From: an uncultured Verrucomicrobiota bacterium
GTDB taxonomy: Bacteria; Verrucomicrobiota; Verrucomicrobiia; Opitutales; Intestinicryptomonadaceae
Reading direction: 5' to 3'
Length of the DNA stretch: 51,215 nucleotides
Assembly (NCBI GenBank): GCA_949298545.1
Contig: CASFWX010000044.1
Location: 1 to 51,215, forward strand
The notes under the pieces are model-generated. The model did not search any database, was not told the DNA's origin, and was given only the letters and a program-made list of their open reading frames with translations. This document shows positions 18,888 to 51,215 of the stretch, piece after piece (position 1 is the stretch's first letter; every line of letters starts with the position of its first letter). Both the position numbers and the translations under genes were made by a program.

Positions 18888-20633
18888 ATGTTTGGTTTTG
18901 CTAAAAAGAAAAAAAGCGGTTTTTTGGCTCTCGTGGATTGTTCCGATGCATCTGTGCAGGTTGAAAAGGCTTTTCCATGCACCGTCGGCGGAGGGAAAAA
19001 TTCCGCTCTCAGGATAGAGGGAGTGCCGGATTTATTTTCCGTTTCCGAAAATTCTTCCGGGAGGAGAGAGATTTCAACGCTCGATGTATCTAGCGTTTCG
19101 GTGAGGGTTAACGGAATGGAGCTTGCTTCTCCGACAGATATAGATTCAGTGGCGACCCTGCAAGTTGGCGAAAGGCTATTCTATCTCATTTCGGATCCAG
19201 AAACTCTCGAAAGAGCCAAGCGCATGGACGTTTCAAAGTGGCTCGTTTTTTACGCCGAGAGCGGCAGGATAGAGGATGAAGTTCCCTTTGCACGGATACG
19301 TTCGTCGGTGACTGGCCGGGGATTGAGCGGAGTGGGGATAGCGATATGCCCATCGAATTTTGAAATAGGCTTCATGTTTACCGCCGTATTTGGAGGCGCA
19401 GACGATAAAAATGGCGCATTGCAGACTGTCCCCATGCTTTCCGAATCCGCCGAGGCAGTTACTTGCCCGATGTGTTGGCTCAAGTTTGACCTCGGGGACG
19501 CGATGAGCATAGCGGTCCACGAGAGTTTGCGCGGCGACCCTCTGCTTGGACCCGACGAAATGATGCGCTTTCTCCCCACCGTTTTCAACGACGACGGTGT
19601 TCCGCTCGATGCCGCGGGAATGCCGTGCCCGGACATCGCTTGCCCGCATTGCCGCAAAAAGCTCCCTCCGAACTGTCTCGACATGCCACAAAAGATATTT
19701 TCGATAGTGGGCGCACCGAGTTCCGGGAAATCCTATTACTTAAGCGTCTTGATAAAGCGGCTTCAAGAGCGTTTGTACGGGGATTTTTCAGTAGTTTTTA
19801 AAGATTTGGATCCCACGGGGAACATGCTTCTGACGCAGATGAAAAACAAGCTCTTTTCCGCGCGGCGCCCGGAGGAGGCGATATTGGCTAAAACCGCGCT
19901 CGAGGGCGCCATGTACGAGCGCTATCCCCGCCACGGCAAGATGGTGGCATTGCCCAAGCCGATGACCTATTCCATTTCAAAAGGCGAAAAGACGCTCGCT
20001 TCGCTCGTATTTTACGACAATGCCGGCGAGCATTTTGAGCCAGGTTTAGACATAGAAGAATCTCCGGGGGCAATGCATGTGGCGAGTTCCTCGGCGATAT
20101 TTTTTCTTTTCGATCCCGCCTCCAACAGAAATTTCAAAATTGCCCTCGGAGATTATCCCGACCCGCAGTTGACCATTGAGGGGCGCCTCGACCAGCAGGA
20201 CACGATACTTTCCGAAATGGAAGTCCGCATAAAGAGGATTCTTTCAATAGAGCCGTCGCGCCGGATAAAGACGCCGATAGCGGTTTTGCTTGGCAAATGC
20301 GACATGTGGATGCATTTGCTTTCCAAACCTCTCGAACCCGTTATATCCGGAGGAATTCTCGATTTGGGGGCTGTGGATAGAAACAGCGAAATATTGCGGG
20401 ATTTCATGATGTCTATAGATTCGAGCGTGCCGATATCTGCCATGTCAATATCTGACAATGTCAGGTTTTTCGCAGTCAGCGCGCTCGGTCATTCCCCGCA
20501 GGTGATTCGCGAGGGCGAGTTTGCAGGCAAGATAGCTCCCATTCCCGAAAAGCTCAATCCTATCGACGTGGAAATTCCTACGATATGGACTCTTTCATTA
20601 TCCACCGACATCATTCCCACGAGGGGAAGCTGA
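18888..20633 (+). CDS. FHA-like / zinc-ribbon / TRAFAC-type GTPase (double-GTPase/GAP1-type system)
   Basis: From ATG 18888 the protein has 581 residues. I prefer this start to 18870 because AAGGAAAGG lies 5 nt upstream. Residues about 24-104 look like a divergent FHA domain (CTVGGGKNSALRIEG, then VRVNGMEL and LQVGERLFYLI). Residues 192-258 hold CPMC and CPHC pairs, a likely zinc ribbon. The C-terminal half is a GTPase: G1 GAPSSGKS (275-282), G3 DNAGEH (377-382), G4 as GKCD (469-472) instead of the usual NKxD, and G5 VSALG (529-533). The DxxGE and SA signs point to the TRAFAC class, and the layout recalls the double-GTPase proteins described with GAP1 partners in bacterial conflict systems. 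It is the first of four coupled genes and is probably a cytosolic GTP switch for its membrane partners. Confidence 0.8.
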   Translation: MFGFAKKKKSGFLALVDCSDASVQVEKAFPCTVGGGKNSALRIEGVPDLFSVSENSSGRREISTLDVSSVSVRVNGMELASPTDIDSVATLQVGERLFYLISDPETLERAKRMDVSKWLVFYAESGRIEDEVPFARIRSSVTGRGLSGVGIAICPSNFEIGFMFTAVFGGADDKNGALQTVPMLSESAEAVTCPMCWLKFDLGDAMSIAVHESLRGDPLLGPDEMMRFLPTVFNDDGVPLDAAGMPCPDIACPHCRKKLPPNCLDMPQKIFSIVGAPSSGKSYYLSVLIKRLQERLYGDFSVVFKDLDPTGNMLLTQMKNKLFSARRPEEAILAKTALEGAMYERYPRHGKMVALPKPMTYSISKGEKTLASLVFYDNAGEHFEPGLDIEESPGAMHVASSSAIFFLFDPASNRNFKIALGDYPDPQLTIEGRLDQQDTILSEMEVRIKRILSIEPSRRIKTPIAVLLGKCDMWMHLLSKPLEPVISGGILDLGAVDRNSEILRDFMMSIDSSVPISAMSISDNVRFFAVSALGHSPQVIREGEFAGKIAPIPEKLNPIDVEIPTIWTLSLSTDIIPTRGS

Positions 20634-20640
20634 GTTTTAA

Positions 20641-22050
20641 ATGGCCTACCAATTGATATACACGAGTTGGCCGACTTCTCTTGTGCGCGGCAGGAGCGGA
20701 TTCTCCACTGTGGCCAGAAGCGCAGGAATGGCGGAGAGGTTCGGTGCGGTTGTCGAGAGGTGCTGCGTTTACGATTCGTCCGTCCCTTTGGTATGGGCGC
20801 ATTCAAAAATAGAGTATGGGGGGGTCGTTTGGCATGTGCTGAGCAGAATTTGCGATGCGGGTGTTGATTATACAAACCGCAACAATTATTTGGCGCACCA
20901 TTTGGCGATTTCGGAAGAGGAGGTGGCGACCTTAAATCTCAATCCGGTCGACGTCATTCTGGGCTGGAAAGGTTGGGTGTCGAAATGGAACGAAGATCCA
21001 AGGCTCCTTGACGATGTTTCCGATCTTTCTTCCATCGTTCCTGAGATCAGCCTTCCGGCAAAGACTTGGGAGGGCGTTTTTGGAGATGCCGCTTGCGCGG
21101 CGCTTCTCGAACCGAATTCGCCGGTTTCCGTAAATGCGGATGCGGATTCTGCCGGAATCCTTCTGCGCCTGTTTGGCGAAAGCGCGGCCTTGTCAATAAA
21201 ACGTTCCGACATGTGGATTCCAACCTTCACTACGCGTTTCGCTTTTGGAGACAATCCGGCGAATTTTATTTGGAAGGGCGTCAATTCCGGGGCCCCCATT
21301 AGCCTGTGCCCCCCAAAATGTCCATCTCCGCCGCCGGGGAGGCGATCGGAGTACGCTCGCACCGGAGCTATGACCAATCTTGAGAAGTACAACTTGAAAG
21401 TAGGAACTCCAAAGAAGCATAAGCCTGATTTTAAAGTTGTAAAAGTGGAGGCGAAACCCTTTCCCTCCGGAATTGTCATAGGTTTGGGAGCGCTTGTCGC
21501 AATAGTGGCTGTGGCGGCTATTTTTTTGATATTTTATTCTTGGGGCAGTGAAAGGGATTTCGGAGCGGGGCGCGAGGGAATGCAAAAACTTTCGGAAATG
21601 GAAGATGTTGTGCTCACCACTCCGAGCGTCCATTCTCAGGTTGATTCGGCAAGTTTAGAAGGCGTTAGCGGAAAAAAATCCGGGCTTTCCAACCGGCGCG
21701 CAAATAGCCCGGAGGGTTCAGAAACAGTCTACGAACTCGTTGAAAGAGCGAGGGAATGCGTGGCAGGCAACAAATTTGCAAAGGCCATTGAAACGCTTGA
21801 AAATTCTTCTTATAGCGGAGATGAAAAGTTGCGGGAAAGCTTGCTTGCAGATATAGCCCACAGGATTGATTATCTGCTCAGATACGCAGACAACGTTTTG
21901 ACCCTGAGCGCTCCGGGGGCCGAAGATTTAACTCGCGCTATTTCCTATATTTCGGCCGCGCGCGCAGGATTGGAAACAGATCCCTCCTTGAGGACTGCCG
22001 GCCGCATGGAAAAGTTAAAATATTTAAACGAAAAAGCAAAAGACAAATGA
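20641..22050 (+). CDS. membrane-anchored protein with GAP1-N-like domain
   Basis: The 469-residue product starts MAYQLIYTSWPTSLVRGRSG followed by FSTVARSAGM. This combination (YTS, then GRSGFSTVAR) resembles the N-terminal domain of GTPase-associated protein 1 (GAP1-N2), known from Planctomycetes and actinobacterial GTPase systems. Residues 1-220 make up this domain. A Pro-rich linker (KCPSPPPGRR) leads to one membrane segment (about 278-300) and a helical tail of 170 residues. The middle and C-terminal GAP1 domains of the usual proteins are replaced by the membrane anchor. It starts 7 nt after the GTPase gene and overlaps the next gene by 4 nt. A role as GTPase partner or regulator is inferred from domain pattern and linkage. 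Confidence 0.72.
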   Translation: MAYQLIYTSWPTSLVRGRSGFSTVARSAGMAERFGAVVERCCVYDSSVPLVWAHSKIEYGGVVWHVLSRICDAGVDYTNRNNYLAHHLAISEEEVATLNLNPVDVILGWKGWVSKWNEDPRLLDDVSDLSSIVPEISLPAKTWEGVFGDAACAALLEPNSPVSVNADADSAGILLRLFGESAALSIKRSDMWIPTFTTRFAFGDNPANFIWKGVNSGAPISLCPPKCPSPPPGRRSEYARTGAMTNLEKYNLKVGTPKKHKPDFKVVKVEAKPFPSGIVIGLGALVAIVAVAAIFLIFYSWGSERDFGAGREGMQKLSEMEDVVLTTPSVHSQVDSASLEGVSGKKSGLSNRRANSPEGSETVYELVERARECVAGNKFAKAIETLENSSYSGDEKLRESLLADIAHRIDYLLRYADNVLTLSAPGAEDLTRAISYISAARAGLETDPSLRTAGRMEKLKYLNEKAKDK

Positions 22051-24800
22051 CGCCACAACTGTTGACAGTAAAAATACAAGCTTTGCTCGGGGGCCGCCTC
22101 GAACTTTCGGACGTGCAGAAGCGCTCTCTGGCTTTGGAATATTATAGGCAGTGCGGGGAAGCGGAAGCGCACATTGAGCATTGCGTATCGCTTATAAAGA
22201 CCGGAAGGGAATATCCAGCCATACAAGTTGCGGAGGCGTCGGATTTGCTCGAAACTGTAAACGCTCTGATGTTTCCCGAGCACGGTGTATGGCGCCAGAT
22301 GTGCCTCAAGGAGGGGCTTCCGGTGCCGCAGCCTTTTGACGACGAACAGATACTCCTAATATCGTCTCTCTATTCCAAAGGCATAACACAGGCTCATCCG
22401 CTGTATCGCGATTACAGGCGCGCCATGCGCAAGAGGGATTGGCCTGGGGCGCTTTCAATTATAAGGACGATTGCAAAAATCAACAGCTATGACGCTGAAG
22501 CGGCAAGGGAGTTTGGAAGGCTCCGCAAGCGCGTGACCGACGGCGTCCTCGAAGAAATAGACGCGGCGATGAAGCGCGGGGACGCTTCGAAAGTTAGCGC
22601 CCTTTGCGAGTCGATAGAAGCCGACGCCGAGCTTTTTTCCGACAATCCCGTATGGCGCAGCGCTCTCGAAATGAAATGCGCCGAAGACAAGAGAATCGGG
22701 GCTTTGGAGTGCCGGAAAATACTCTCCGAGTTGGCTGCGGCAGACCCGGTGAAAGATTGGGAGCGCGTCGCCGAATTGGTGACCCGGTTTAATTTTGCGC
22801 GGGGAGATTTGGAATTTTCCAAGGAGGATTTGGAGCTTCTTGAAAGCCGTTCCAGAGAGGCGTCAAAATATCAGGACGAGTCCATCGCCTCCGAGCGCGG
22901 GGCGCGCTTTGGAAACCTCATATCATTGGAGCTCGAGAAAAATGTAAAAGACGCGGGGCAGTCTCTGAAAACATTGGCGTCTCTCGTTCGCGATGGCGGT
23001 TCTTGCGTGGATCCGGAGATACTGTCGCGGGCGAAGGCAAAGATGTCATCCTTGCGCCGCGCAGTGTTTTTCAGGGGTTTTGCGCGCTTCTCCATGCGGC
23101 TTTGCGCCTTGGCTTTGGCCGTGTTTTTCATTTGGGCGGCTGCCGATAAAATGGCTTCCGAAAACCGCAGGAATGGAGCGCTTTCCGAACTCGACGACAT
23201 CGCCCTCATTGACGATTATTCAGAATTTGAAAAGCGCATGGAAGAGTTTTCCCTAAAATACGCCGATCTCCTTGGCGACACTTCTTTAAAGTCGAAGATA
23301 TCGGCTTTGAAGGGTGATATGGACGTTCTCAAGAGCGACACCGACAGGTTGTTTCGCGGCGTCTTGGCAATAGAGAAGACAGACTTGAAAACCGCCGGGT
23401 CGAAATTCTTTGACGAAGCCAGAAACGATCTCGAAAGGGCATATTCGGAAATGGCGTCTCTTTCGAGGCGTTCGCAGATATCTCTCAAGGAAAAAATCGA
23501 CCTTCAGACAAAGCGCCTTAATTCGGAAATAGATAGGCGCAAAATGGAGAACGCATCAAAAGTTCGCGTTCTGCTCGACAAATACGAGGCGGCACTCGGC
23601 AAATATTTGGCCCTTTCTGGCGACAGGTCTGAAATAGACCGCGAGTGCGATGCAGTTCTAAAAGATTTGCGCCCGCTGATGGAGGACACCAGTCGGATAT
23701 TTAAGGCGCACCAGATAGATTTGGACAGATATGGAGACCTGTCCGCGCGCATCGCCGACGCCCGGGCGAAATTTGCCAAATTCGACTCTTTGCGGGACGC
23801 TCTTTTGTCCGCGCGCACATCGGACGAATATCTCGCCGCGCTCGACATGGTTTCGATAAGCGGCGAAGTTCCTCCCGAATTCTCCAAGAAGGTATCCCGT
23901 ATAGTCCCCCAAAAAGACGCTATAAAAGCGGGAAATCTCACAGATTTCATCGATATGCGATATGTCGGCGAGCCTCTTCCGAAAACTTTTACGAAGTGCG
24001 CTTTTCCAGAAAATAAAATTTTTGTGGACGTTTGGAAATACTCCCACCCCAAGCGCGGCGATATTTATACAATAGGCGAAATACGTCAAACTTCGCAAAA
24101 ATGGCGCGGGGGAGGCGAAACCGTACAGTATGCCGAGGAGATAAATCTCGGAGGGCGCGCTACGACAATGGTCTACAGGCTGACCGAGATAGCCGGAAAG
24201 CCGCAGCGCGGGGAGCTGCTTTCAAACGGGGCCCTTTCCGCCGAATCGGCGCTCGGGCGCTCCGTAAAGTCGATTATGGAGAAAGAGCCGGCTCTGGCAG
24301 CGATAAAAGTATTGAGGGACGCGGAGGCCAACGCGGTATACAAGGCGTATCTTGAAAACATGATTTTTTCCGAATTGTCGAAGAATCCGGTCGAGAGCGG
24401 TTTGGCCTTTTCGGACTCGGCGCGCCGCCGCGCGGCAAAGGTTCGCGAGTGCGCGGCTGCGCTTTTCGATTACTCGTGGATTTTTGAAAACCCCTCAAAG
24501 ATGAAATATTTGGCTGAAACTCTATATTCGTCAGGATCTCCCGACTATTTTTCGGAGGCAGCCATAGGTTTGGAGACCGTAAAGATCGCGCAAAAAAATC
24601 CTTTGCGGTTTGTGGGCGTCTGCGATGAAAAGGGAGTTCCGCGCATCTTTGAAAATGGCGGAGGCGGAGCGCAGTGGGGCGTCGATTCGTCGAGCGGGCT
24701 TTTCAAGCGAATAGGTCCGGATTCGTCTTTCTTGCCGCTTTCCCCGATATTTGAGGAGAGCATGTCGAAAGAAGACATAATAAAGTCCGCAAGCAAATGA
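22047..24800 (+). CDS. large helical membrane protein of the GTPase cassette, unknown family
   Basis: I do not recognise a named family in these 917 residues. Residues 1-345 are helical and highly charged. One membrane segment lies near 348-367 (RLCALALAVFFIWAAADKMA). The stretch 370-640 has heptad-like repeats rich in Leu, Lys, Glu and Asp, which suggests coiled coils. The last 270 residues look globular (GNLTDFIDMRYVGEPLPKTF, then the WKYSHPKRGDIYTIGEIRQT region). There is no cleavable signal. The gene overlaps its neighbours by 4 nt on both sides, so it is made together with the GAP1-N-like and GYF_2-like proteins. It could be the structural or effector component of a membrane complex; this is inference from position only. 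Confidence 0.72.
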   Translation: MTPQLLTVKIQALLGGRLELSDVQKRSLALEYYRQCGEAEAHIEHCVSLIKTGREYPAIQVAEASDLLETVNALMFPEHGVWRQMCLKEGLPVPQPFDDEQILLISSLYSKGITQAHPLYRDYRRAMRKRDWPGALSIIRTIAKINSYDAEAAREFGRLRKRVTDGVLEEIDAAMKRGDASKVSALCESIEADAELFSDNPVWRSALEMKCAEDKRIGALECRKILSELAAADPVKDWERVAELVTRFNFARGDLEFSKEDLELLESRSREASKYQDESIASERGARFGNLISLELEKNVKDAGQSLKTLASLVRDGGSCVDPEILSRAKAKMSSLRRAVFFRGFARFSMRLCALALAVFFIWAAADKMASENRRNGALSELDDIALIDDYSEFEKRMEEFSLKYADLLGDTSLKSKISALKGDMDVLKSDTDRLFRGVLAIEKTDLKTAGSKFFDEARNDLERAYSEMASLSRRSQISLKEKIDLQTKRLNSEIDRRKMENASKVRVLLDKYEAALGKYLALSGDRSEIDRECDAVLKDLRPLMEDTSRIFKAHQIDLDRYGDLSARIADARAKFAKFDSLRDALLSARTSDEYLAALDMVSISGEVPPEFSKKVSRIVPQKDAIKAGNLTDFIDMRYVGEPLPKTFTKCAFPENKIFVDVWKYSHPKRGDIYTIGEIRQTSQKWRGGGETVQYAEEINLGGRATTMVYRLTEIAGKPQRGELLSNGALSAESALGRSVKSIMEKEPALAAIKVLRDAEANAVYKAYLENMIFSELSKNPVESGLAFSDSARRRAAKVRECAAALFDYSWIFENPSKMKYLAETLYSSGSPDYFSEAAIGLETVKIAQKNPLRFVGVCDEKGVPRIFENGGGGAQWGVDSSSGLFKRIGPDSSFLPLSPIFEESMSKEDIIKSASK

Positions 24801-29023: not shown

Positions 29024-30061
29024 ATGCAAAAGAAAGAACACTCACTCAGGCCCAAACGCATAACGATAAAAGACATAGCCAAATATTGCGATTTGTCGAT
29101 AGGCGCCGTTTCAAGCGTCCTTCAAAATAAACAGGTCGAAAGGCGCCTCCCGCGAAGTACGGTTAAAAAAGTTTCAAATGCGGTCCGCAAGCTTGGTTAC
29201 ATACCTGATCTTGGCGCGCGCAGGCTCAGGATTTCAAATTACGGCAAGACTCCCATTGTCATGGCTCTCTTGAGCTCCTACGAGGCTCCGCTTAACGCCA
29301 TCACGACTTTTCTATTTCAGATGAGGAATGTCATAGATTCCACTCCCGCCATCTCCGAGCGCTTCGACGTTTCAATATCAATGGAGATGTTTCGGGCTGG
29401 ACATTTGAGGGAGAAAAAATCTGTGCTCGCCGGAAATTCTTTCAACGCGGCGATTATAGCAAACACGACAAAGGAGGACGACGAATTTCTCAGTTCGGCT
29501 TTTCTCCCTTATCCCAACGTTTTGGCTGGCCGCAGAATAGACGGTTATTACGGCGTAGTCGATCCTCCAAGCCACGGTTCTGAAGTGGCAGCGCTTTTTA
29601 AGAAGGCGGGAAAAAAACGTTTGGCGGTAATTTACGGAACCCCCATGACTCAACTCACCAGAAACCGCGTGGAAGGTTTCGTCAATGCCATGAACGGCGA
29701 CGTCATCAGGGTTGAATCCCCGGCGCTGAACGAGTTGTCGGGTTACGAGACCGTGCGCAATTACCTTGCGAAAGGTGTTCGCTTCGACGGTTTGTTTTGC
29801 GTGACCGACTCTTTTGCAATGGGCGCATACAGGGCAATAAAAGGGTTCGGCTTGAGAATACCGCAGGACGTCGGGGTAATTGGAATAGGCGATTACTCTT
29901 ATGCCGATTATTTCGATCCTCCCCTGACCACAGTGGGCGTAATAAATTCAGAATTCGCATATCAAGGCAGCATGCTCTTGATAAAGCAGATTACGGGCGA
30001 ATTAAAAGATCCGGAAATCATAGAGCTTAAAGTAAACACAATCGAGCGGGCCTCGCTTTAG
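29024..30061 (+). CDS. LacI-family transcriptional regulator
   Basis: The N-terminus is a LacI helix-turn-helix with hinge: ITIKDIAKYCDLSIGAVSSV (13-32) and LPRSTVKKVSNAVRKLGYIP, then ARRLR. The rest is a periplasmic-binding-type effector domain ending in GVIGIGDYSYADYFDPPLTT and VGVINSEFAYQGSMLLIKQI. The spread of residues before LQNK and the RRLP stretch differ from E. coli LacI. Its gene lies directly upstream of, and in the same direction as, the kdgK-tct-eda operon, whose promoter has two palindromes; it is the best candidate to bind them. The ligand would be a sugar acid, by inference. It starts 13 nt after pdxH without a clear ribosome site. Confidence 0.92.
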   Translation: MQKKEHSLRPKRITIKDIAKYCDLSIGAVSSVLQNKQVERRLPRSTVKKVSNAVRKLGYIPDLGARRLRISNYGKTPIVMALLSSYEAPLNAITTFLFQMRNVIDSTPAISERFDVSISMEMFRAGHLREKKSVLAGNSFNAAIIANTTKEDDEFLSSAFLPYPNVLAGRRIDGYYGVVDPPSHGSEVAALFKKAGKKRLAVIYGTPMTQLTRNRVEGFVNAMNGDVIRVESPALNELSGYETVRNYLAKGVRFDGLFCVTDSFAMGAYRAIKGFGLRIPQDVGVIGIGDYSYADYFDPPLTTVGVINSEFAYQGSMLLIKQITGELKDPEIIELKVNTIERASL

Positions 30062-30177: not shown

Positions 30178-30199
30178 TTAGATAAAATATTTTATCTAA
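30178..30199. promoter_or_regulatory. operator 1: perfect 22-bp palindrome upstream of kdgK
   Basis: TTAGATAAAAT is followed immediately by its exact reverse complement. The site lies just upstream of a -35-like TTGACT. Its centre is 42 bp, about four helical turns, from operator 2. A dimeric repressor such as the adjacent LacI-family protein is the likely ligand. Confidence 0.65.
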
Positions 30200-30203
30200 A
30201 GGC

Positions 30204-30230
30204 TTGACTCGCTTGGAAAATAAATAAAAT
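30204..30230 (+). promoter_or_regulatory. candidate promoter of the kdgK-tctCBA-eda operon
   Basis: TTGACT (30204-30209) and TAAAAT (30225-30230) are separated by 15 nt, shorter than ideal. The -35 lies between the two palindromes and the -10 is inside operator 2, which fits repression by a bound dimer. Confidence 0.45.
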
Positions 30231-30241
30231 GTTTTGCCTAA
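30220..30241. promoter_or_regulatory. operator 2: degenerate copy of the kdgK palindrome
   Basis: ATAAATAAAAT followed by GTTTTGCCTAA matches operator 1 at 17 of 22 positions. It covers the candidate -10 element. The region is A/T-rich, so part of the match could be chance. Confidence 0.5.
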
Positions 30242-30323
30242 AGAGGGGTTTAATAGGGCAAATTTTTGTCGCTTTAATTTCCATCCCCAAAATATGCCAG
30301 AACAACTTGAAGATAAAAACCGC

Positions 30324-31412
30324 ATGAAGATACTATGCTTTGGAGAAGTGATGCTCAGGCTGTCAGCGCCCAGGCACCAACTTTTATTGCAATCCGTTCC
30401 CGGAGAGCTTTGCGCCACATTTGGAGGGGCGGAAGCCAATGTTGCATGGGGAATATCAAGGCTCGGAGGAGAGTCGTCGTTTGTCACGGCTTTGCCGGAC
30501 AACCCAATGGCACGCGCCTGCATAAATCAACTCCGCGGAATAGGAGTGGACGTTTCGGGAGTGATATTCGGAGCGGGGCGCATGGGGACTTATTACGTCG
30601 AAGCGGGGGCAAACCAGCTTTCGAGCAAAGTGTATTACGACAGGGAATACTCGCTCGTTTCACAGACGCCTTTCGAGGCATACGATTTTGATGGAGCTCT
30701 CAGAGGCGTCTCGCGCGTCCATCTCAGCGGGATTACACCCGCTATTTCCGAGACGGCGGCTTCAGCGTGCATAAAACTTGCAGGTTTGGCGCGTTCAAAA
30801 GGCGTGGCGGTTTCGTGCGACCTGAATTTTAGGGGCAAACTTTGGAAATGGCGAACCGGAGTTGCGGCGCGAGATCTGGCGAGGGAAATTATGCCCGATA
30901 TACTCTGCAATACAGACTTGGTAATAGGAAACGAAGAGGACGCTTTTGACGTATTAGGCATAAAATCCGGAGAAAGCGACGTTGACAGCGGCAGACTTGA
31001 TATTTCCGGATACAAATGCACGGCGCGGAAAATATCGGAGAAATTTCCCAGTGTGAAGAAAGTTGCGTTCACCCTGCGCGAGAGCGTTTCAGCCACGCAC
31101 AATAATTGGGGGGCGATGATATACAGCGCATCTGGCGATTTTATCGCGCTGGCGCCGCTGGGCGGAGGCGGCGATTATATGCCATATAAAATAAAAAATA
31201 TAATTGACAGGGTCGGCGGCGGAGATTCCTTCGCGGCGGGTCTCATATACGGCCTCGACAGCGGAGAGTTTGCCTGCGACGCCGAAGCGCTTTCTTTTGC
31301 CGTAGCGAATTCCTGCCTTGCGCATTCTGTGTCGGGGGACTATAACTACGTTTCAAAATCCGACGTGCTTGCTCTGATGAGGGGTTCGGCTTCGGGAAGG
31401 GTTCAACGTTAA
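30324..31412 (+). CDS. kdgK: 2-dehydro-3-deoxygluconokinase (PfkB family)
   Basis: KdgK phosphorylates 2-keto-3-deoxygluconate (KDG) to KDPG. The PfkB family signs are KILCFGEVMLRLSAP at the start, GGAEANVAWGISRLG, CDLNFRGKLW and the catalytic GGGDSFAAGL near the end. The GEVMLRL start and NFRGKLW are typical of KDG kinases. The product, 362 residues, is cytosolic. I place the start at ATG 30324, where homologues begin; ATG 30294 would add ten residues. It heads the operon kdgK-tctC-tctB-tctA-eda, and its product is the substrate of the eda aldolase, which supports the substrate call. Regulation by the two operators upstream is likely. Confidence 0.88.
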   Translation: MKILCFGEVMLRLSAPRHQLLLQSVPGELCATFGGAEANVAWGISRLGGESSFVTALPDNPMARACINQLRGIGVDVSGVIFGAGRMGTYYVEAGANQLSSKVYYDREYSLVSQTPFEAYDFDGALRGVSRVHLSGITPAISETAASACIKLAGLARSKGVAVSCDLNFRGKLWKWRTGVAARDLAREIMPDILCNTDLVIGNEEDAFDVLGIKSGESDVDSGRLDISGYKCTARKISEKFPSVKKVAFTLRESVSATHNNWGAMIYSASGDFIALAPLGGGGDYMPYKIKNIIDRVGGGDSFAAGLIYGLDSGEFACDAEALSFAVANSCLAHSVSGDYNYVSKSDVLALMRGSASGRVQR

Positions 31413-31427
31413 CTTTCAGATGTTTAA

Positions 31428-32399
31428 ATGCGCGTAAAATACGCAGTATCCTGTGCTGTTATTTTGGCGGTTCTTGCGTGGTGCGCATGGTGCGCGATAA
31501 CGCGCGGGAGCGACATTGGCGCGTATCCATCAAAATATTTGGCGCTCATATGCCCGTTTTCTGCGGGAGGGGGGACAGATCTGCTCTCAAGGACATGCGC
31601 GTCGGAGCTCTCAAAGTCTCTCGGCAAGCCCGTAGCGGTATTTAATATTACGGGCGGGGCAGGCACGCTTGGCTTCATCGAGGGCGCTGGCGCCCCGGCG
31701 GATGGCTATACGCTTACTATGTTGACATTTGAAATTAATACTCATTGGCTGCGCGGCTTCACTTCGGTGTCGGCGAAGGATTTTGAAATCGTGGCTCTGT
31801 TAAATTCCGACCCTGCATGCATAGCAGTCCCCGTGGAATCTCCGATAAAGGATATTTCGGATTTTGCAAGGGCCGGGAAATCCGGCGAGAGATTAACTGT
31901 GGGCAATTCCGGGATTGGCGGAGTATGGCACTTGGCTTCGGAGTCCTTCGCACGAAAACTCGGGATAGAGACAATTTCAATTCCTTTTGAGGGCGCTTCC
32001 GGGGCGATTACGGCAATGCTCGGCTCGCACATAGACGCAGTCTGCGCGGGCGCTGCCGAACTCAAGCGGCATGTGGATTCCGGAAAAATCCGCGTATTGG
32101 CGGTCATGGACAAAACGCGCGTGGGATATTTTCCCGATGTTCCAACGTGTGCTGAAACCGGGACTAACCTCAGGTTTTGCACATGGAGGGCAGTGGCCGT
32201 CCCGCGCGGCACTCCGCAAAACGTAATAGAATTGTTGGCTGCGAAACTCGAAGATTTTTCAAAATCCGGGTCTGCCGATGATTTTGCAAAGCGCACGGGT
32301 ACGAATATAGCATTTAGAAAGGGCGACGGATTTTTGCGGGAGATCTCCGGGAGTGAAGCGGAGCTCAAGGAGTTAATGGAGCGCCTAAAACTCTTGTGA
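31428..32399 (+). CDS. tctC: TctC/Bug-family extracytoplasmic solute receptor
   Basis: The 323-residue protein begins with a membrane or signal segment (about 5-24) and has the Bug fold: PFSAGGGTDLLSR for ligand binding, NITGGAGTLGF, ADGYTLTMLT, then VGNSGIGGVWHLASE and PFEGASGAITAMLGSHIDAV. Such receptors deliver carboxylates to TctAB permeases in the periplasm. It lies 15 nt after kdgK and 6 nt before tctB, and the operon predicts a sugar acid such as KDG or a uronate as ligand. The relatives named TctC bind citrate, so the ligand is inferred from context. Confidence 0.92.
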   Translation: MRVKYAVSCAVILAVLAWCAWCAITRGSDIGAYPSKYLALICPFSAGGGTDLLSRTCASELSKSLGKPVAVFNITGGAGTLGFIEGAGAPADGYTLTMLTFEINTHWLRGFTSVSAKDFEIVALLNSDPACIAVPVESPIKDISDFARAGKSGERLTVGNSGIGGVWHLASESFARKLGIETISIPFEGASGAITAMLGSHIDAVCAGAAELKRHVDSGKIRVLAVMDKTRVGYFPDVPTCAETGTNLRFCTWRAVAVPRGTPQNVIELLAAKLEDFSKSGSADDFAKRTGTNIAFRKGDGFLREISGSEAELKELMERLKLL

Positions 32400-32405
32400 C
32401 AAGTT

Positions 32406-32858
32406 ATGAAAAATGCTTTTCTAACGCTATTCTTTTCGCTCTTTTGCGCGTATGAGGCATTTAGCCTTGCCGCCGATAAAGGCGGCATTTCAGGGGCGTC
32501 CGCTTGCCCCATGGCGGCGGCTTTGCTAATGGCGGCGTTTTCCTTGGGTGATCTGCTTTGGACACATTGCAGGGGGAAGAGAGGCAAGAAAGATTCGCCC
32601 GATGTGAGCTCTCGCAAGCCGGATTTATCTTTGGGCATATTTTTCAAGCTCGCCTTTGCGAGTGCAATTTACGCGCTTTTAATGCCCCATATCGGGTTTG
32701 TCGTTTCGACCGGTTTGTATTGTGCAGCAGTGCTTTGGATATTTTCTTATCGGGACATTCTTGTGTCTCTGGCTTTTGGGTATGCGGGAGCGGCTATATT
32801 GTATTTCGTATTTTCGGCGATTATGAAAGTGGCGCTTCCGGCGGGATTTTTGAACTAA
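32406..32858 (+). CDS. tctB: TctB small membrane subunit of tripartite tricarboxylate-type transporter
   Basis: The 150-residue protein has four hydrophobic stretches, as in the TctB/DUF1468 family: near FLTLFFSLFCAYEAFSL, MAAALLMAAFSLGDLLW, FFKLAFASAIYALLMPHIGF and DILVSLAFGYAGAAILYFVF. The loop PHIGFVVSTGLY matches the family's second half. TctB pairs with TctA in the inner membrane to form the sodium- or proton-driven permease. It sits between tctC and tctA with short gaps. Confidence 0.86.
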   Translation: MKNAFLTLFFSLFCAYEAFSLAADKGGISGASACPMAAALLMAAFSLGDLLWTHCRGKRGKKDSPDVSSRKPDLSLGIFFKLAFASAIYALLMPHIGFVVSTGLYCAAVLWIFSYRDILVSLAFGYAGAAILYFVFSAIMKVALPAGFLN

Positions 32859-32872
32859 GACTTAAACTGGCT

Positions 32873-34357
32873 ATGGATATTTTTTCCCAGATAGCTTTAA
32901 ATTTTTTAGAACCTGCATACTGGATAGCGATATGCGCTGGCGCTTTTATTGGACTCATACTTGGCGCCATACCCGGGGTTTCCGCTACAATGGCAGTTGC
33001 GCTGATTCTTCCGTTTACTTTCGGAATGCCGATAATATTTGCTCTTGCGCTCATGCTCGGCATTTACTCCGGATCCGTGTACGGTGGAAGCATTCCCGCC
33101 ATACTCTTTAAGACGCCAGGCACACCCGCCTCCGCCGCCGTTATATTCGACGGATACGCGATGACTCGGAACGGGGAGGCTGGAACGGCTTTAAAAGTTG
33201 CCGCATTCTCCATGTTGGGAGGAGGGCTGATAGGAGCTTTTATACTTCTTTTACTCGCGCCCCAGATTGCGGTTTTAGCGGTTAAGTTTGGGCCGTCGGA
33301 ATTTTTTGCAATGGCGCTTTTCGGAATACTCGTGATAGTATCCGTATCGGAAGAGCCTTTCTTTAAGACGATGGTGGCGACTCTCGCAGGGCTTATGCTT
33401 TCATGCGTTGGCATGGATCCCCTATCGGGGTGCGCGCGCTTTACGTTCGGTTGTGCCAGCCTTATGGAGGGCTTGCCATTTGTTCCGGTTTTAATCGGTC
33501 TTTTCGCGGTTGCCGGAGTCTTTGGAAGTTCCTCTGACGAGCTTATGGCGCATGGGGAAAGGCTGAAAAGTGCGGGAGGCGCTTTGATCCCCGCGCTCGG
33601 CCGCGTTTGGAGAACCGTGGCAAAATCCAGCCTTATAGGAACTTTCATCGGTTCGACTCCCGGCGCGGGATGCGATATAGCCGCTTTTGTTTCCTACGGG
33701 ATTGCGCGCAATTCGGCGGGAGACAAAGATAAGTTCGGCGCGGGTGAGCCAAAGGGAGTTGCCGCTGTCGAATCGTCGAAAGCCGCCTGTACTTCTGGAG
33801 CGCTTATACCCCTTTTATCATTGGGAATACCCGGCGATTCTGTCACGGCCATTTTAATAGGCGCTTTTATGGTCCACGGTATTGCCCCCGGGCCTTTGCT
33901 CATCGAAAATTCGGCTCCGCTGGCGTATTCAATATTTACGACTGTCGTGTTTGTTCAGATAGCCGTTTTTATTGTGGCATTTCTTTCAATCAAGTGGAGC
34001 GCGTTGGTCCTAAAGTGCGATCCGCGCTTTGTTAAGGTTTCGATACTTGCGCTTTCTATGGTCGGATCCTACGCAATGCGCAACAATATGTTTGACGTCT
34101 GGATAGCGATTATTTTTGGAATTGTGGGCGTTATAATGAGCCGCGGAAGATATCCTGTGGCTCCCTTTCTCTTGGCATTGATTCTTGGGCAAATGGCGGA
34201 AGTGAATTTTAGGCGGGCATTTTTAATAGGGGGGGATTCAGCAGCATTTATTTTTGAGCGCCCGGCGACTCTTTTCATACTTGCGCTTGCGGCGCTTTTT
34301 ATAATTTTTTCCATCGCGCGCAGGATAAAATTCCATTTTGGAAGAATAAAACAATAA
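32873..34357 (+). CDS. tctA: TctA large membrane subunit of tripartite tricarboxylate-type transporter
   Basis: From ATG 32873 the product has 494 residues, the usual TctA length, and about ten to twelve membrane helices. The family signature is GLILGAIPGVSATMAVALIL and GSVYGGSIPAILFKTPGTPA with DGYAMTRNGEAGTAL; the second copy reads IGTFIGSTPGAGCDIAAFVS and later LIPLLSLGIPGDSVTAIL. These internal repeats form the translocation path. An in-frame extension to 32558 would overlap all of tctB and is rejected. Together with TctC and TctB it probably imports a sugar acid for KdgK and Eda. Confidence 0.93.
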   Translation: MDIFSQIALNFLEPAYWIAICAGAFIGLILGAIPGVSATMAVALILPFTFGMPIIFALALMLGIYSGSVYGGSIPAILFKTPGTPASAAVIFDGYAMTRNGEAGTALKVAAFSMLGGGLIGAFILLLLAPQIAVLAVKFGPSEFFAMALFGILVIVSVSEEPFFKTMVATLAGLMLSCVGMDPLSGCARFTFGCASLMEGLPFVPVLIGLFAVAGVFGSSSDELMAHGERLKSAGGALIPALGRVWRTVAKSSLIGTFIGSTPGAGCDIAAFVSYGIARNSAGDKDKFGAGEPKGVAAVESSKAACTSGALIPLLSLGIPGDSVTAILIGAFMVHGIAPGPLLIENSAPLAYSIFTTVVFVQIAVFIVAFLSIKWSALVLKCDPRFVKVSILALSMVGSYAMRNNMFDVWIAIIFGIVGVIMSRGRYPVAPFLLALILGQMAEVNFRRAFLIGGDSAAFIFERPATLFILALAALFIIFSIARRIKFHFGRIKQ

Positions 34358-34374: not shown

Positions 34375-35007
34375 ATGCCGTCATTAAAAGAAAAACTCGA
34401 AAAATTGCGAATAGTAGCAGTTGTAAGCGTCGACAACCCTTCGGACGCCGTTGATTTGGCGGAAACCCTTTGCGAAGGCGGAATCAATGCGGTGGAAATG
34501 ACTTTGAGGTCTCCGAACGCCCTAAGGTGCATAGAGGCGGTAGTTTCCAAGGTCTCAGCAATGTGCGTAGGGGCGGGGACTGTCTTGACTCAAAATCAGG
34601 CGGAGGCCGTATCCGAAGCGGGAGCGGCATTTGCTGTGGCTCCCGGCTGCAATGCGCGCGTGCTCGAAAAGGCGCGAGAGTTGGATTTGCCTTTCGCTCC
34701 TGGCATCATGACCCCGAGCGATATTGAAAAATCTCTTGAATTCGGACTCGCCACGATGAAGTTTTTCCCCGCCGAATCAAGCGGCGGAATAAAACATTTG
34801 GAGAGCATGGCGGCCCCATACAAGCATCTCGGCGTTTCCTTCCTCCCATTGGGGGGGCTCAATGCGGAAAACATGAAAACATATTTATCTTCTCCTTTGG
34901 TTTGCGCTATAGGGGGGTCTTGGATAGCGCCGGCACCTCTGATAAAGGATAGAGATTGGAAACATATTTTACAAAACGCGAGATCCGCGGTAGCGAACCT
35001 TTCTTAA
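34375..35007 (+). CDS. eda: KDPG aldolase (2-dehydro-3-deoxyphosphogluconate aldolase)
   Basis: Eda splits KDPG into pyruvate and glyceraldehyde 3-phosphate through a Schiff-base lysine. The 210-residue TIM-barrel protein has the catalytic glutamate in AVEMTLRS (Glu41), GAGTVLT, FAVAPGCN, PFAPGIMTPSD and the Schiff-base lysine in MKFFPAES (Lys129). It closes the kdgK-tctCBA-eda operon and supplies the second step of the pathway, from KDG to central metabolism. It is cytosolic and 17 nt after tctA. Confidence 0.95.
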   Translation: MPSLKEKLEKLRIVAVVSVDNPSDAVDLAETLCEGGINAVEMTLRSPNALRCIEAVVSKVSAMCVGAGTVLTQNQAEAVSEAGAAFAVAPGCNARVLEKARELDLPFAPGIMTPSDIEKSLEFGLATMKFFPAESSGGIKHLESMAAPYKHLGVSFLPLGGLNAENMKTYLSSPLVCAIGGSWIAPAPLIKDRDWKHILQNARSAVANLS

Positions 35008-35149: not shown

Positions 35150-35767
35150 ATGTTTACAGGCATTGTTGAAGCCACAGGCAAAGTCGTGTCATTAACCGAA
35201 GGGAAGGCGGCTTGGACGCTCAAGCTAGAGCTTCCGCAATTTATTGCGGAAACTTTGTCGCTTGGAGATTCGCTCGCGTGCAACGGTTGCTGCTTGACCG
35301 TCGTGTCCATAGAGTCAAACGCGGCTTCTTTCGAGCTCCTCGAGGAGACATTGCGCCTCACTTCCTTTGAAGGGATAAAGCCAGGCACTCCCGTAAATCT
35401 CGAGCGCCCGCTTTCAGCCGGGGCGAGGCTCGGAGGGCACTTCGTTTCGGGGCATGTGGACGCGCGCGCTGAGATTTTGGATTTTGAACAAAGGGGCAAA
35501 AATTTCTTTTTGAAAGTCCGCGTTCCAGGGGAATTTTCAAAGTATGTAGTTTATAAAGGAAGCATAGCTATAGATGGAATATCTCTAACTATAGCCGAAG
35601 ACGGATCGGATTCTTTGGCGGTTTGGCTCATTCCCCACACGTTGGCCGTCACAAACCTCGGAGCATGTAAAAAAGGAGGACTCGTAAATCTCGAGTTCGA
35701 TTTGCTCGCAAAATATGCCGAAAAAATAATCGCGGGGAATCGTGAAAAATCGCCGTATCAGCCGTAG
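35150..35767 (+). CDS. ribE: riboflavin synthase (alpha subunit)
   Basis: The enzyme joins two lumazine molecules into riboflavin. The 205 residues are two similar lumazine-binding barrels: MFTGIVEATGKV with CNGCCLTVVS in the first, and GGHFVSGHVDARAEI with IAIDGISLTIAED in the second. Length is standard. No other rib gene is in the window. It starts after a strong ribosome site and overlaps the next gene by 26 nt. A possible -35 (TTGACT, 35094-35099) lies upstream but no good -10 is paired with it, and no FMN riboswitch is seen. Confidence 0.95.
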   Translation: MFTGIVEATGKVVSLTEGKAAWTLKLELPQFIAETLSLGDSLACNGCCLTVVSIESNAASFELLEETLRLTSFEGIKPGTPVNLERPLSAGARLGGHFVSGHVDARAEILDFEQRGKNFFLKVRVPGEFSKYVVYKGSIAIDGISLTIAEDGSDSLAVWLIPHTLAVTNLGACKKGGLVNLEFDLLAKYAEKIIAGNREKSPYQP

Positions 35768-36776
35768 CGACATGCGCCTTTTGAAGGCGCTTTTAAAAAG
35801 GATTCCCAAGGGAGAACGCGCATTTTTTCTTGCGATTCTCGCATTCCTTTGGGGATTGTGGGCTATCGGGGGATTCTTTTTTGGAAAAAATTCTTCAGAG
35901 CTGGAGAGTCACGATTCCTTCTCTCAAAATCAGCCTTCGGAACGCGGATCGGGTTTTGCTAATCCGGACTGCGTGCGGGTGTGTTCATGGAATGTTCGCA
36001 ACTATTCGGTCGCGAATAGGAGGGTTGGGGAGGAATGGAGAGAGTTTCCAAAACCTGAGAGCGAAAAGTTCCAGCTGAGAAAGTCTCTTAGAACCATAAA
36101 CGCAGATATTGTCTTGCTTCAAGAAATGGGCGATCCAGCATTTCTCGATGAATTGCGCTCGGATTTGCGCTCGGAAGGGATTGATTATCCATTCGCAGCA
36201 ATCACATCTCGCGATTCGTCCATGCGCTTGGCGATGCTTTCGCGTTTGCGGCCGGAAAAAATTCTCGATGCGCATTCGATTTCTTTTAATTTCAAAGGCG
36301 ATCGCCGATTTTCTCCGCGGGGAACTCTCGGAGCGCAATTTAGAACAAACGGCGTCAAGTGGTGCGTCTTTACCGTACACTTAAAAAGCAAGCAGGGAGG
36401 GCGGAAATCAGATAAAAATTTTTTTCCGTTTAGATGTTCCGAGGCCTCGGCTATAAGCTCAAAAATCGTGGATTTTGCGGGAAACTCCAATATGATCATG
36501 CTGTGCGGTGATTTTAACGACGAGCCGTCGACCGGGTTATATTTGAGATTTTCAAACAGAATTCTGACTTTCGCGCTCCTGCCTTTTGTCGATGGTGATA
36601 AGGCTTGGACGTATTATTGGGCAAAGAAAGATGCGCATTATGTTTACGACTATTTTCTCTTGTCTAATTCTCTTATGAAAATAGCCAGCCCTGCAATGCT
36701 TGCTCCGTTTTCTGTGGCTAGCGACCACCGTCCGATCTATACAGATTTGGACTTTTCCAAAATTAAAGAAAATTAA
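35742..36776 (+). CDS. membrane-anchored endonuclease/exonuclease/phosphatase family protein
   Basis: After a basic start and one membrane segment (about 29-48) the protein (344 residues, GTG start) has the EEP catalytic fold: CSWNVRN, the metal ligand in VLLQEMGDP, TVHLKSKQGG, CGDFNDEPS and the final SDHRPIY. All main active-site residues are present. Members cut phosphodiesters in nucleic acids, phosphoinositides or sphingolipids; the anchor suggests it works outside the inner membrane. The start overlaps ribE by 26 nt, with GGGG upstream; an ATG at 35772 is the alternative. Confidence 0.88.
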   Translation: MKNRRISRSDMRLLKALLKRIPKGERAFFLAILAFLWGLWAIGGFFFGKNSSELESHDSFSQNQPSERGSGFANPDCVRVCSWNVRNYSVANRRVGEEWREFPKPESEKFQLRKSLRTINADIVLLQEMGDPAFLDELRSDLRSEGIDYPFAAITSRDSSMRLAMLSRLRPEKILDAHSISFNFKGDRRFSPRGTLGAQFRTNGVKWCVFTVHLKSKQGGRKSDKNFFPFRCSEASAISSKIVDFAGNSNMIMLCGDFNDEPSTGLYLRFSNRILTFALLPFVDGDKAWTYYWAKKDAHYVYDYFLLSNSLMKIASPAMLAPFSVASDHRPIYTDLDFSKIKEN

Positions 36777-48971: not shown

Positions 48972-49667
48972 ATGCCTTCCTCCGCCGGAATACTTTATAT
49001 TGTCGCCACCCCAATAGGAAACCTTCGCGATATTTCTGAGCGCGCAATTCAAACATTGCGCGAATGCGATTTGGTTGTTTGCGAAGACACGCGGGTTACG
49101 GGCGCTTTGCTTGCCAAACTCGGAATTTCCAAGGAGATGTTTGTGTGCGAAGATTCGCGCGAAAGGAGGGTGTGCCCGGTTCTTCTCGAAAAATTGCGCG
49201 GAGGCAAAAATGTGGCTGTCGTTAGCGACGCCGGAACTCCGCTCGTAAGCGACCCAGGATTCAGGTTGGTTCGCGCTTGCCGCAAGGAGGGAATAAGCGT
49301 AGTCCCTGTGCCGGGCGCGTGTGCGGCAATGGCGGCTCTTTCCGCTTCTGGATTGCCATGCGATTCATTTCTCTTCGCTGGATTCCTTCCTCCTAAGACT
49401 TCAGCAAGGAGGAATTTTTTCGAGAAATATAAAAATTTTCCGCATACGCTGATTTTTTATGAGTCTCCGCACAGGATAGACAAATTTGTTTCCGACGCGC
49501 TCGAAATATTCGGAGAAAATAGAACAGTATGCATTGCGAAGGAAATGACAAAATTACATGAGGCATTCTTCGTGGGCCGCTTGGGAGATGTCCTAAAAGC
49601 TTTGCTTGTTGCCTCTTTGAAAGGCGAGTTTTGCGCGCTTATAGCGCCTGAAGATTTCGAGTTGTGA
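48972..49667 (+). CDS. rsmI: 16S rRNA (cytidine1402-2'-O)-methyltransferase
   Basis: RsmI methylates the 2'-O of C1402 in the ribosomal P site using S-adenosylmethionine. The 231-residue protein begins ILYIVATPIGNLRDISERAI and has CEDTRVTGALLAK, VVSDAGTPLVSDPGFRLV, FAGFLPPK and IFYESPHRI, the full signature. It is shorter than E. coli RsmI (286) because the C-terminal helical part is missing, as in several phyla. It overlaps the Ppx/GppA gene by 4 nt. Confidence 0.96.
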   Translation: MPSSAGILYIVATPIGNLRDISERAIQTLRECDLVVCEDTRVTGALLAKLGISKEMFVCEDSRERRVCPVLLEKLRGGKNVAVVSDAGTPLVSDPGFRLVRACRKEGISVVPVPGACAAMAALSASGLPCDSFLFAGFLPPKTSARRNFFEKYKNFPHTLIFYESPHRIDKFVSDALEIFGENRTVCIAKEMTKLHEAFFVGRLGDVLKALLVASLKGEFCALIAPEDFEL

Positions 49668-50599
49668 AAAGGGTCTTGGCAATAGACGTCGGATCGAACA
49701 CTATAAAGAGCCTTCTGGTTGAGAAGATCTCGGAGGGATCTTCCATATCCATAAAAAAGCTTTATGAGAAAACTTGCGAAAGGCGAATATCAAACGGGGC
49801 GGGCGGTCTTATCGACGGCGCGGAACGCCTTATAATTGACTCCATTCGGGAGTTTTTGGGCGATGCGCACCGGATTTGCGGGGGAGACTTTAAAATCGCC
49901 GCCGCCGGTACTTCCGCTTTGAGAGACGCTCCTAACGCGAAGGAAATCTTAGAATCGGTAAGGCTTGCTTCAGGGTGCGATATAAGGGTGCTTTCGGGGG
50001 TTGAGGAAGCGCGTTTGGCGCGCTTAGGCGCATTTTGCGACCCGTCCCTTTCGCGCGCGCGCCCATTAAAAACGGCTTTTTTTGATTTAGGCGGCGGAAG
50101 CATTGACATGAATCTTGGGAGAGGGGGAGACATTGTGGATTCCTGTAGCCTTCCATTAGGAGCAGTTAGATTGACAAAGAGATTTATTGGAGATGCCGCC
50201 ACTTCGCTCTCTTCGGAAGTGGCGAATGAGATGAGGTTGGATATCGAAAACATTTTAGGTAAAAATTTTTCGAGCGAAAGGATTGCCGCATATAGGCAAT
50301 CTGATATTTTAATAGCTTGCGGCGGAGCTGTGGGGGCGGCGCGAATTATAAAGGCCAGCCGCGGTATTCCTGAAACAGATAATGCGATTTCCGACTCTGA
50401 GATCCGCCAAATGTTTGCTGAGGTATCTCGGCTAAATTCCGAAGATAGGTGCAAACGCTTCCATATTTCGCCGGCGCGTGCGGATATTTTACCTGCGGCA
50501 TTTCTCGTTATTTCCGGCATCATGCAGCTCCTTAATAAGCGGGAATTATTGCACACGTTTTACAATCTTCGCTGGGGAATAGCCTCGGAGATCTTGTAG
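49664..50599 (+). CDS. ppx: Ppx/GppA-type exopolyphosphatase/guanosine pentaphosphatase
   Basis: The 311-residue protein, with a GTG start in a GTGA overlap, has the actin-like fold of the Ppx/GppA family: VLAIDVGSNTIKSLLVE, AAAGTSALRDAPN, VLSGVEEARLARLG, FFDLGGGSIDMN and PLGAVRLTKRF. It hydrolyses polyphosphate or pppGpp. It lacks the C-terminal HD-like domains of E. coli Ppx, so it is of the short form. Which substrate it prefers cannot be told. It is the last gene of the long operon. Confidence 0.92.
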   Translation: MKRVLAIDVGSNTIKSLLVEKISEGSSISIKKLYEKTCERRISNGAGGLIDGAERLIIDSIREFLGDAHRICGGDFKIAAAGTSALRDAPNAKEILESVRLASGCDIRVLSGVEEARLARLGAFCDPSLSRARPLKTAFFDLGGGSIDMNLGRGGDIVDSCSLPLGAVRLTKRFIGDAATSLSSEVANEMRLDIENILGKNFSSERIAAYRQSDILIACGGAVGAARIIKASRGIPETDNAISDSEIRQMFAEVSRLNSEDRCKRFHISPARADILPAAFLVISGIMQLLNKRELLHTFYNLRWGIASEIL

Positions 50600-50702
50600 C
50601 ATATTTTTGTTTTCCAAGTGTTTGAAAATTGCCATTCCGGTAGCGATTAAGCCCTCTGGTCGATTTGGCATTTTAAAATAAAGAATTTTTTTGTAAAAAA
50701 AA

Positions 50703-50731
50703 TTGACATCCGTTAAATAAAAAGTTTTATC
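50703..50731 (+). promoter_or_regulatory. candidate sigma-70 promoter
   Basis: TTGACA (50703-50708) and TTTATC (50726-50731) are 17 nt apart, an ideal spacing. It points toward the secreted-protein gene at 51051. Confidence 0.55.
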
Positions 50732-50734
50732 TGA
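50713..50734. promoter_or_regulatory. third copy of the kdgK-type operator
   Basis: TTAAATAAAAA followed by GTTTTATCTGA matches kdgK operator 1 at 18 of 22 positions and keeps most of its symmetry. It spans the spacer and -10 of the candidate promoter, where a bound repressor would block transcription. Confidence 0.5.
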
Positions 50735-51050
50735 TTTATCAAACATAGCAAGTATAACAATGAACATATTGTTTTATTTATTCGTTGCTAAAGTGCAGTT
50801 TCGCCGCCTGCTTTTTGGAGGCGATAGGTTTAGTTTTTTTGCGCGGGCATTTCTCGAGGAAAATTTCCATTCTTTTATAATTGCGGAAATATTTTTTAAA
50901 AAGCTTCCTTTTACAACTCGATCAAAGACTATTTGCTTCTCCAATTTAAAGGATTCAGCGAGCAGACTAGAATTTGGTTATGTATAGTTTTTTTAATTTT
51001 AATAATAAATTCATTTCATACAAACCTACTAACTAAAAGGAAAATCAACA

Positions 51051-51215
51051 ATGAAAAATAGAACTATCACAGCTCTTGGCGCATATTGCGCCTTTGCATG
51101 CGGATTGAATGCCGCAGACTATTATTTTACAAATGCCGGCGGCTCATCGTGCGAGATGAACGACGGAGCAATTTATAGTATAACGTGGTCAGACGCAAAC
51201 GCATGTAGCGCAACA
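51051..51215 (+). CDS. secreted protein, N-terminal part only (cut by right edge)
   Basis: The 55 codons in the window start MKNRTITALGAYCAFACGLN with AAAAGG 10 nt upstream. The first 21 residues form a signal peptide with a cleavage site after LNA. The mature start (ADYYFTNAGGSSCEMNDGAI) is rich in Gly, Ser, Asn and aromatic residues and has cysteines at least at two places. Such starts are common in large surface or autotransporter-like proteins of Verrucomicrobiota, but no domain can be seen yet. It may be regulated with the sugar-acid operon through the operator-like site upstream. Confidence 0.7.
   Translation, partial: MKNRTITALGAYCAFACGLNAADYYFTNAGGSSCEMNDGAIYSITWSDANACSAT

Follow-up and report, generated by a model that had tools for sequence, protein, structure and literature searches.

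The KdgR regulator of Bacillus subtilis belongs to the LacI family and is encoded within the kdgRKAT operon. PurR, a repressor of the same family for which the structure has been solved, recognizes an even palindrome with A-tracts beside its centre, a feature also of the sites described below. KdgR of Bacteroides (BT0487) is likewise a LacI-family protein and governs a glucuronate/galacturonate regulon, which is counted among the regulons that take in a few periplasmic or extracellular proteins (PMC3878776). The operators of the family have been surveyed: 1251 of 1303 motifs are even palindromes, with even palindromes of 16-22 bp the rule, and the central pair is CG in 1173 of the 1303, another pair in 49 and degenerate in 29 (PMC4052901). 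According to the same survey, tandem sites are common, their spacing being a multiple of the helical repeat with maxima at 22 and 32 bp, and more than 75% of the sites lie 140-30 bp upstream, about 7% lying beyond 200 bp (PMC4052901).

The window analysed here, the whole of a contig (C44) of 51,215 nucleotides, is part of an assembly (G000) of 1.88 Mb in 112 contigs that is 92% complete and whose gene content suggests a Verrucomicrobiota-like lineage. It contains a gene row of the KdgR type, all on the plus strand: i) a LacI-family regulator gene (29024-30061, 345 aa), directly upstream of kdgK; ii) kdgK, encoding a 2-keto-3-deoxygluconate (KDG) kinase of the PfkB family (30324-31412; Pfam PfkB on the longer frame 30234-31412); iii) tctC (31428-32399; Pfam TctC 1.1e-38), encoding the receptor of a tripartite tricarboxylate transporter, tctB (32406-32858; TctB 1.7e-15) and tctA (32873-34357; TctA 8.7e-130 from residue 124 of the frame 32558-34357, start set by eye); and iv) kdgA, encoding a KDPG/KHG aldolase (34375-35007; Pfam Aldolase 8.2e-62). 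The start of kdgK at 30324 was picked by likeness to its orthologues, and the best match of the protein in the PDB is a KDG kinase (2afb, 1.5e-67). The regulator is placed in the LacI family by its Pfam LacI domain (2.6e-8, 34.0 bits against a cut-off of 27), carries a Peripla_BP_3 domain (5.7e-18, 66 bits, cut-off 26.5) and has LacI family/PurR proteins as its closest solved structures. A search bearing on its identity as a KdgR matched 18 NCBIfam models, all below their cut-offs; its position beside kdgK would make it the natural regulator of the operon and a candidate KdgR-like repressor. Elsewhere in the window, three adjacent genes (18870-24800) resemble a GTPase-associated conflict system: one has a DO-GTPase2 match that stays under the cut-off, one a GAP1-N2 match that exceeds it, and the third is a 917-aa frame that matched no family.

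Two operator-like sites are found between the LacI-family gene and the kdgK-tctCBA-kdgA operon, so that a kinase, an aldolase and uptake genes follow the sites as is expected of a KdgR-type regulon. The first, O1 (30178-30199, TTAGATAAAATATTTTATCTAA), is a perfect 22-bp palindrome in which 11 of 11 half-site pairs match; it is the only one in the window and is presumed to be the main operator of kdgK. The second, O2 (30220-30241), is identical to O1 at 17 of 22 positions, lies at a centre-to-centre distance of 42 bp and is less regular, with three mismatches to the symmetric pattern. They end 124 bp (O1) and 82 bp (O2) before the start codon at 30324, within the typical 140-30 bp. A possible kdgK promoter (TTGACT-15-TAAAAT, 30204-30230, plus strand) follows O1 and overlaps O2; it is weak because of its short spacing and was not listed by the promoter scan, which accepts spacings of 16-18 nt only. 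Before the lacI gene itself there is no site, the best match in 600 bp being 15/22.

A third operator-like site, O3 (50713-50734), lies far downstream and is near-palindromic, with 8 of 11 half-site pairs matching. The first-pass annotation had reported that these positions match the kdgK palindrome at 18 of 22 positions, and this is borne out: O3 shares 18/22 positions with O1 and 17/22 with O2, and the next best place in the window, beyond O1, O2 and O3, reaches 16/22 to O1. The finding is confirmed as an observation. O3 is located in a spacer of 451 bp (30% GC) between a gene of the Ppx/GppA family (49664-50599) and a gene for an exported-looking protein that starts at 51051, and it ends 316 bp before that start codon, outside the typical 140-30 bp. 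It overlaps the promoter-like TTGACA-17-TTTATC (50703-50731, plus strand), with a perfect -35 (50703-50708) and a poor -10 (50726-50731). The positions of this promoter were given correctly before; the promoter itself is weaker than had been implied, since its -10 agrees with TATAAT at 3 of 6 positions and the promoter scan around the spacer did not list it, giving two other weak promoters. We consider it fairly probable that the LacI-family repressor encoded at 29024-30061 uses O3 as an operator, and that the same repressor acts at O1/O2 and at a further site on contig C1, described in the following.

A degenerate consensus built from the three sites in the window, searched with up to 3 mismatches, occurs at 6 places in the assembly against 3 for the reversed pattern: the three window sites, C1:15825-15846 with one mismatch, and two places with three. 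The exact 16-bp core (RATAAAANNTTTTATY) occurs at three places only, namely O1, O3 and C1:15828, which are thus even palindromes within the 16-22 bp of LacI-family operators. Of the symmetric 22-mer three places were found with no mismatch (O1, O3 and C1), none with one, one with two and thirteen with three, including O2, the control giving 14 places at up to 3 mismatches. These patterns were composed after the sites had been seen, so that the counts without mismatch for these sites are partly by construction; the fairer evidence is that no further strict places exist, the rate in other genomes and the context of the site on C1. The first-pass annotation had warned of chance matches in A/T-rich gaps; over the whole genome strict matches proved few and loose ones came near the control rate, and the sole new strict site is found at a locus with a glycoside hydrolase of family GH28, an enzyme type that degrades pectin and that such a regulon would lead one to expect.

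On contig C1 the site lies between a BNR_2/GH28 gene pair, which reads away from it, and a divergent gene of the 3-keto-disaccharide hydrolase family, the product of which has a lipoprotein-like start. Its distance is 87 bp to the BNR gene (longest frame; 165 bp to the next likely start) and 236 bp to the 3-keto-disaccharide-hydrolase-family gene, the latter outside 140-30 bp. The BNR_2 protein (504 aa, longest frame) had no match in the PDB. The GH28 protein (486 aa) belongs to the family by Pfam (PF00295, 1e-10, 41.6 bits against a cut-off of 22.9); its best NCBIfam model is that of the alpha-D-galacturonidase BT4155, of which it is only a relative (42 bits, cut-off 800), and in the PDB it matches, at 1e-4 or better, 5olp alone (8.5e-10), deposited as a pectate lyase. 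BNR orthologues occur in 3 of 18 other genomes (G007, G008 and G010), and 10-11 kb around each contained no strict site; the best matches were 18/22, 18/22 and 19/22, respectively. The match in G008 lies directly before the BNR orthologue and was taken as an A/T coincidence.

Galacturonate reaches KDG by the uronate isomerase route. Two GH28 genes were found in the assembly, the second of them on contig C79, where uxaC is found nearby (1e-188). In 13 kb of that contig the best match to the symmetric 22-mer is 18/22, 86 bp before the frame of the second GH28 gene; it falls short of a strict site and could be an A/T coincidence. A different palindrome, CTCAAACGTTTGAG, of the canonical LacI type, occurs directly before uxaC (L130 3836-3849) and again on contig C75 before a second kdgK-kdgA-BNR operon (L013 5417-5432), which suggests that this genome has a second uronate regulon, with CG-centred sites. 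A place before that second operon (C75:20645, 2 mismatches) had been considered as a fourth member of the regulon described here and was dropped: the second regulon explains it better, because a perfect TCTCAAACGTTTGAGA lies nearer the gene and CTCAAACGTTTGAG stands before uxaC.

The A/T-rich setting raises the question whether O3 arose by chance, in which case the operators would be O1, O2 and perhaps C1 only. We regard this as rather unlikely. Dinucleotide-shuffling the 451-bp spacer 20,000 times gave 22 sequences with a match to O1 of at least 18/22 (about 3.0 per Mb at its 30% GC), and in the assembly at least 2 places besides O1 reach this level, as found by a scan that allowed up to 3 mismatches. 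Core matches with up to 2 mismatches are only mildly above control (137 versus 97), so that the loose ones are mostly noise; among the 14 places with one mismatch, 12 were placed as coding or spacer, and one in the window (36411) lies inside the frame 35742-36776. The poor -10 and the long distance from O3 to the gene also fit a coincidence. O3 nevertheless retains the entire core exactly, which shuffled spacers contained 53 times in 30.9 Mb (1.7 per Mb), and is an exact match to the consensus of O1, O2 and C1 from which it had been left out, a consensus that occurred once in 30.9 Mb of shuffles of the three spacers (0.03 per Mb) and that is not fully independent of O3, because the pattern that found C1 included it. 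Taking about 0.25 Mb of the assembly as such spacer, an assumed figure, between about 0.4 (core) and about 0.75 (O1 only) chance sites are expected per genome and two are seen, which makes O3 likely, not certain, on these grounds.

Two facts add weight to O3: the GH28 locus at which C1 is found, and an exact 21-mer, extending past the palindrome, that C1 and O3 have in common. When 0.25 Mb of shuffled spacer was simulated 120 times and searched on both strands, a 21-mer was never reached and 20 was reached 4 times, so that the shared stretch is a tail event and not an impossibility. The rate in other genomes argues in the same direction. When 53 further genomes from the same genus, family and order (about 142 Mb in sum) were scanned with 2 mismatches allowed, the O1/O2/C1 consensus matched 35 times and its reversed control 36 times; of the 35 no match was exact and a single one had one mismatch. 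The own assembly contains 4 exact places and none for the control.

O3 and C1 might instead be the operators of a different regulator, either the LacI paralogue on contig C36 or a protein of another family, O1 being merely similar. In favour of this is that O3 and C1, identical at 20 of 22 positions, are closer to each other than either is to O1 (18/22 each), and that the C36 paralogue (50% identity) has the same recognition helix as the regulator at 29024 (LSIGAVSSVLQN). Speaking against it, 16 kb around the C36 paralogue contained no strict site (best 18/22, inside a frame) and a CG-centred site is found there at the start of a gene of the DHDPS family, while all three places carry the exact core and the functions encoded behind them (KDG kinase, aldolase, GH28) cohere. 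We therefore consider a separate regulator improbable.

The central base pair deserves attention with respect to the preferred reading, that of one repressor acting at all these sites. The CG centre, typical though not universal in the family, is absent from the sites: it is TA in O1, TG in O2 and AG in O3 and C1. The recognition helix that the regulator shares with the C36 paralogue is the same or nearly the same in a homologue in genome G014 (LSIGAVSGVLQN), and CG-centred AAACGTTT sites occur at the starts of DHDPS-family genes near both of these LacI homologues (L049 11577 on C36, within the opening codons of the longest frame and before the first ATG; L053 7506 in G014). These are probably the corresponding operators. 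As AAACGTTT adjoins the DHDPS start at the C36 paralogue and at its G014 counterpart, this type of recognition helix may prefer CG. When the centres are aligned by eye, the half-sites differ only in the central base and at one or two outer positions; this likeness is compatible with one protein family, yet it is the main ground for doubt. It is conceivable, though we hold it to be doubtful, that the operator centre of a LacI-family repressor has moved away from CG, to TA/TG/AG, although the repressor has kept the recognition helix found in a paralogue which, judged by its neighbourhood, still uses AAACGTTT, and that the repressor so ties uronate uptake by Tct, the GH28/BNR locus and a cell-surface protein into one small regulon.

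The distribution of the regulator and its sites was compared between genomes. Homologues of the LacI protein at 1e-10 or better were found in 10 of 54 genomes, the own one included; among the 13 other genomes of the genus only G008 has them, on contigs other than that of its kdgK. The own genome has, besides the C36 paralogue, one on C15 (45%), which is followed by genes for a Cas9-like protein (1059 aa), Cas1 and Cas2, a type II CRISPR set (L050 8345-12769). In the 10 stretches around LacI homologues that were inspected, own paralogues included, a GH28 gene (2.8e-33) divergent to lacI was found once, in G031 (39% identity). In G014 (51%) lacI is followed by genes for a beta-helix protein and an exported protein, and the best symmetric 22-mer match in 17 kb (19/22, CG-centred) ends 20 bp before the latter; one of the two G008 homologues has a nearby beta-helix protein with a pectate-lyase-like stretch. 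The other neighbours scanned belong to the DHDPS, FGGY kinase, RraA-like, SASA, BNR and oxidoreductase families, that is, to other sugar genes, and the subfamily therefore seems to serve several sugar pathways and is not tied to GH28. A wider contig search with the LacI protein gave one locus, in a MAG of the Christensenellaceae (best segment 41%), where the best symmetric match in 20 kb was 17/22.

Orthologues of kdgK (at least 58% identity) are present in 7 of the 13 other genomes of the genus. In none of the 7 does a lacI gene lie beside it, the row in G008 being kdgK-tctC-tctB-tctA, and the 400 bp before these orthologues gave best symmetric matches of 14-18/22, versus 22 in the window. 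The site at kdgK thus appears to have no phylogenetic footprint among the 7 orthologues of the genus. That the neighbouring lacI and the site are absent together fits the proposed regulon, but it is weak evidence.

It is very improbable that O3 is a terminator or RNA element that closes the upstream gene row, of which the Ppx/GppA-family gene is the last, and has nothing to do with the gene at 51051: O3 does follow the stop codon of the Ppx/GppA-family gene (end at 50599) at a distance of 113 bp, but the terminator scan found none in the spacer, Rfam gave no match on 49400-51215, the 451-nt spacer RNA folded no better than its shuffles (z -0.10) and the same 21-mer stands at an unrelated locus.

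The gene at 51051 had been described before as a secreted-protein gene, and its open frame and its exported-looking N-terminus, as judged by eye, hold up; only 55 codons are present (51051-51215, plus strand), because the window is the whole contig and ends at 51215. The 55-aa protein was not found in the 13 other genomes of the genus and matched no NCBIfam or Pfam model. Its N-terminus resembles that of the exported protein of G014 (29% over 52 columns, pairwise E 1e-4) and that of a paralogue on contig C5 of the own genome (pairwise E 2e-4), and these two are themselves related (E 5e-21, 26% across 481 columns of alignment). Relative to the G014 protein the window gene breaks off near residue 52, and contig C74 opens inside a frame (C74:1-1422, L154) homologous to residues 67-497 of that protein, which suggests that this frame could be the continuation of the 51051 gene; the ends of the window and of C74 have no exact overlap of 8 or more bases. 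C5 and C95 could form a similar broken pair. Neither the C74 fragment nor the C5 paralogue matched a Pfam or NCBIfam family at a useful E-value, Pfam gave a single match for the G014 protein (at E 0.17 only), the G014, C74, C5 and window proteins matched nothing in NCBIfam up to E 0.01, and the gene following C74:1-1422 had no match in the PDB. Judged by eye, three of these sequences, the G014 homologue and the fragments on C74 and C95, have a C-terminus made up of PEP-S, a membrane-like stretch and a basic tail.

Taken together, the sites and the gene families behind them argue for a small regulon of a KdgR-like kind, with three places or more, probably comprising KDG catabolism, the GH28 locus and the exported protein. 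The first-pass annotation had proposed that a single regulator controls uptake and catabolism of a sugar acid and a secreted protein; the regulatory half of this is strengthened by the few strict sites, the one at the GH28 locus and the LacI-family gene beside kdgK, and the product of 51051 cannot be assigned, being truncated and having relatives that matched no family at useful E-values. The link to glycans rests on kdgK and C1 and not yet on the 51051 protein, which may act on or near the same glycan. Mechanistically, a dimer of the LacI-family protein encoded at 29024 would bind the A/T-rich palindrome GATAAAA-NN-TTTTATC and act as a repressor: in the kdgK operon two dimers would sit on O1 and O2, 42 bp and thus four helical turns apart, around and over the promoter; at O3 one dimer would cover the spacer and -10 region ahead of the exported-protein gene, provided that the promoter at 50703 is the one used; and at C1 one dimer would occupy the interval that separates the BNR/GH28 pair from the divergent 3-keto-disaccharide-hydrolase-family gene. 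The effector that releases the repressor would be KDG or a related compound formed as galacturonate is broken down. If this is true, a regulator, an operator and a likely class of inducer are assigned to an otherwise anonymous exported protein. It would also provide a natural test of how the central base step is read, as two paralogues with the same helix lie, within one genome, beside non-CG, A/T-rich sites and beside a CG-centred site, respectively.

Among the literature matches listed, no title describes such a regulon in this kind of bacterium, which is no proof of absence. The exported proteins are like PEP-CTERM proteins in the PEP-S, membrane-like stretch and basic tail of the G014, C74 and C95 proteins, and unlike them in matching no NCBIfam model, the window gene itself being present without its C-terminus. 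KdgR of B. subtilis is similar in gene order, the regulator gene standing directly beside kdgK and kdgA in both; it differs in being from a Firmicute and in its transporter. With KdgR of Bacteroides (BT0487) the system would share a LacI-family regulator of uronate/KDG genes, whereas here TctCBA serves uptake and the operators have no CG at their centre. Compared with PurR and the other LacI-family repressors of solved structure, the effector class is different and the central CG that most of them read is absent, while the helix-turn-helix with its sugar-binding-protein-like domain and the even palindrome are the same. The regulon is thus ordinary in kind, and what is atypical is its A/T-rich operator with a centre other than CG.
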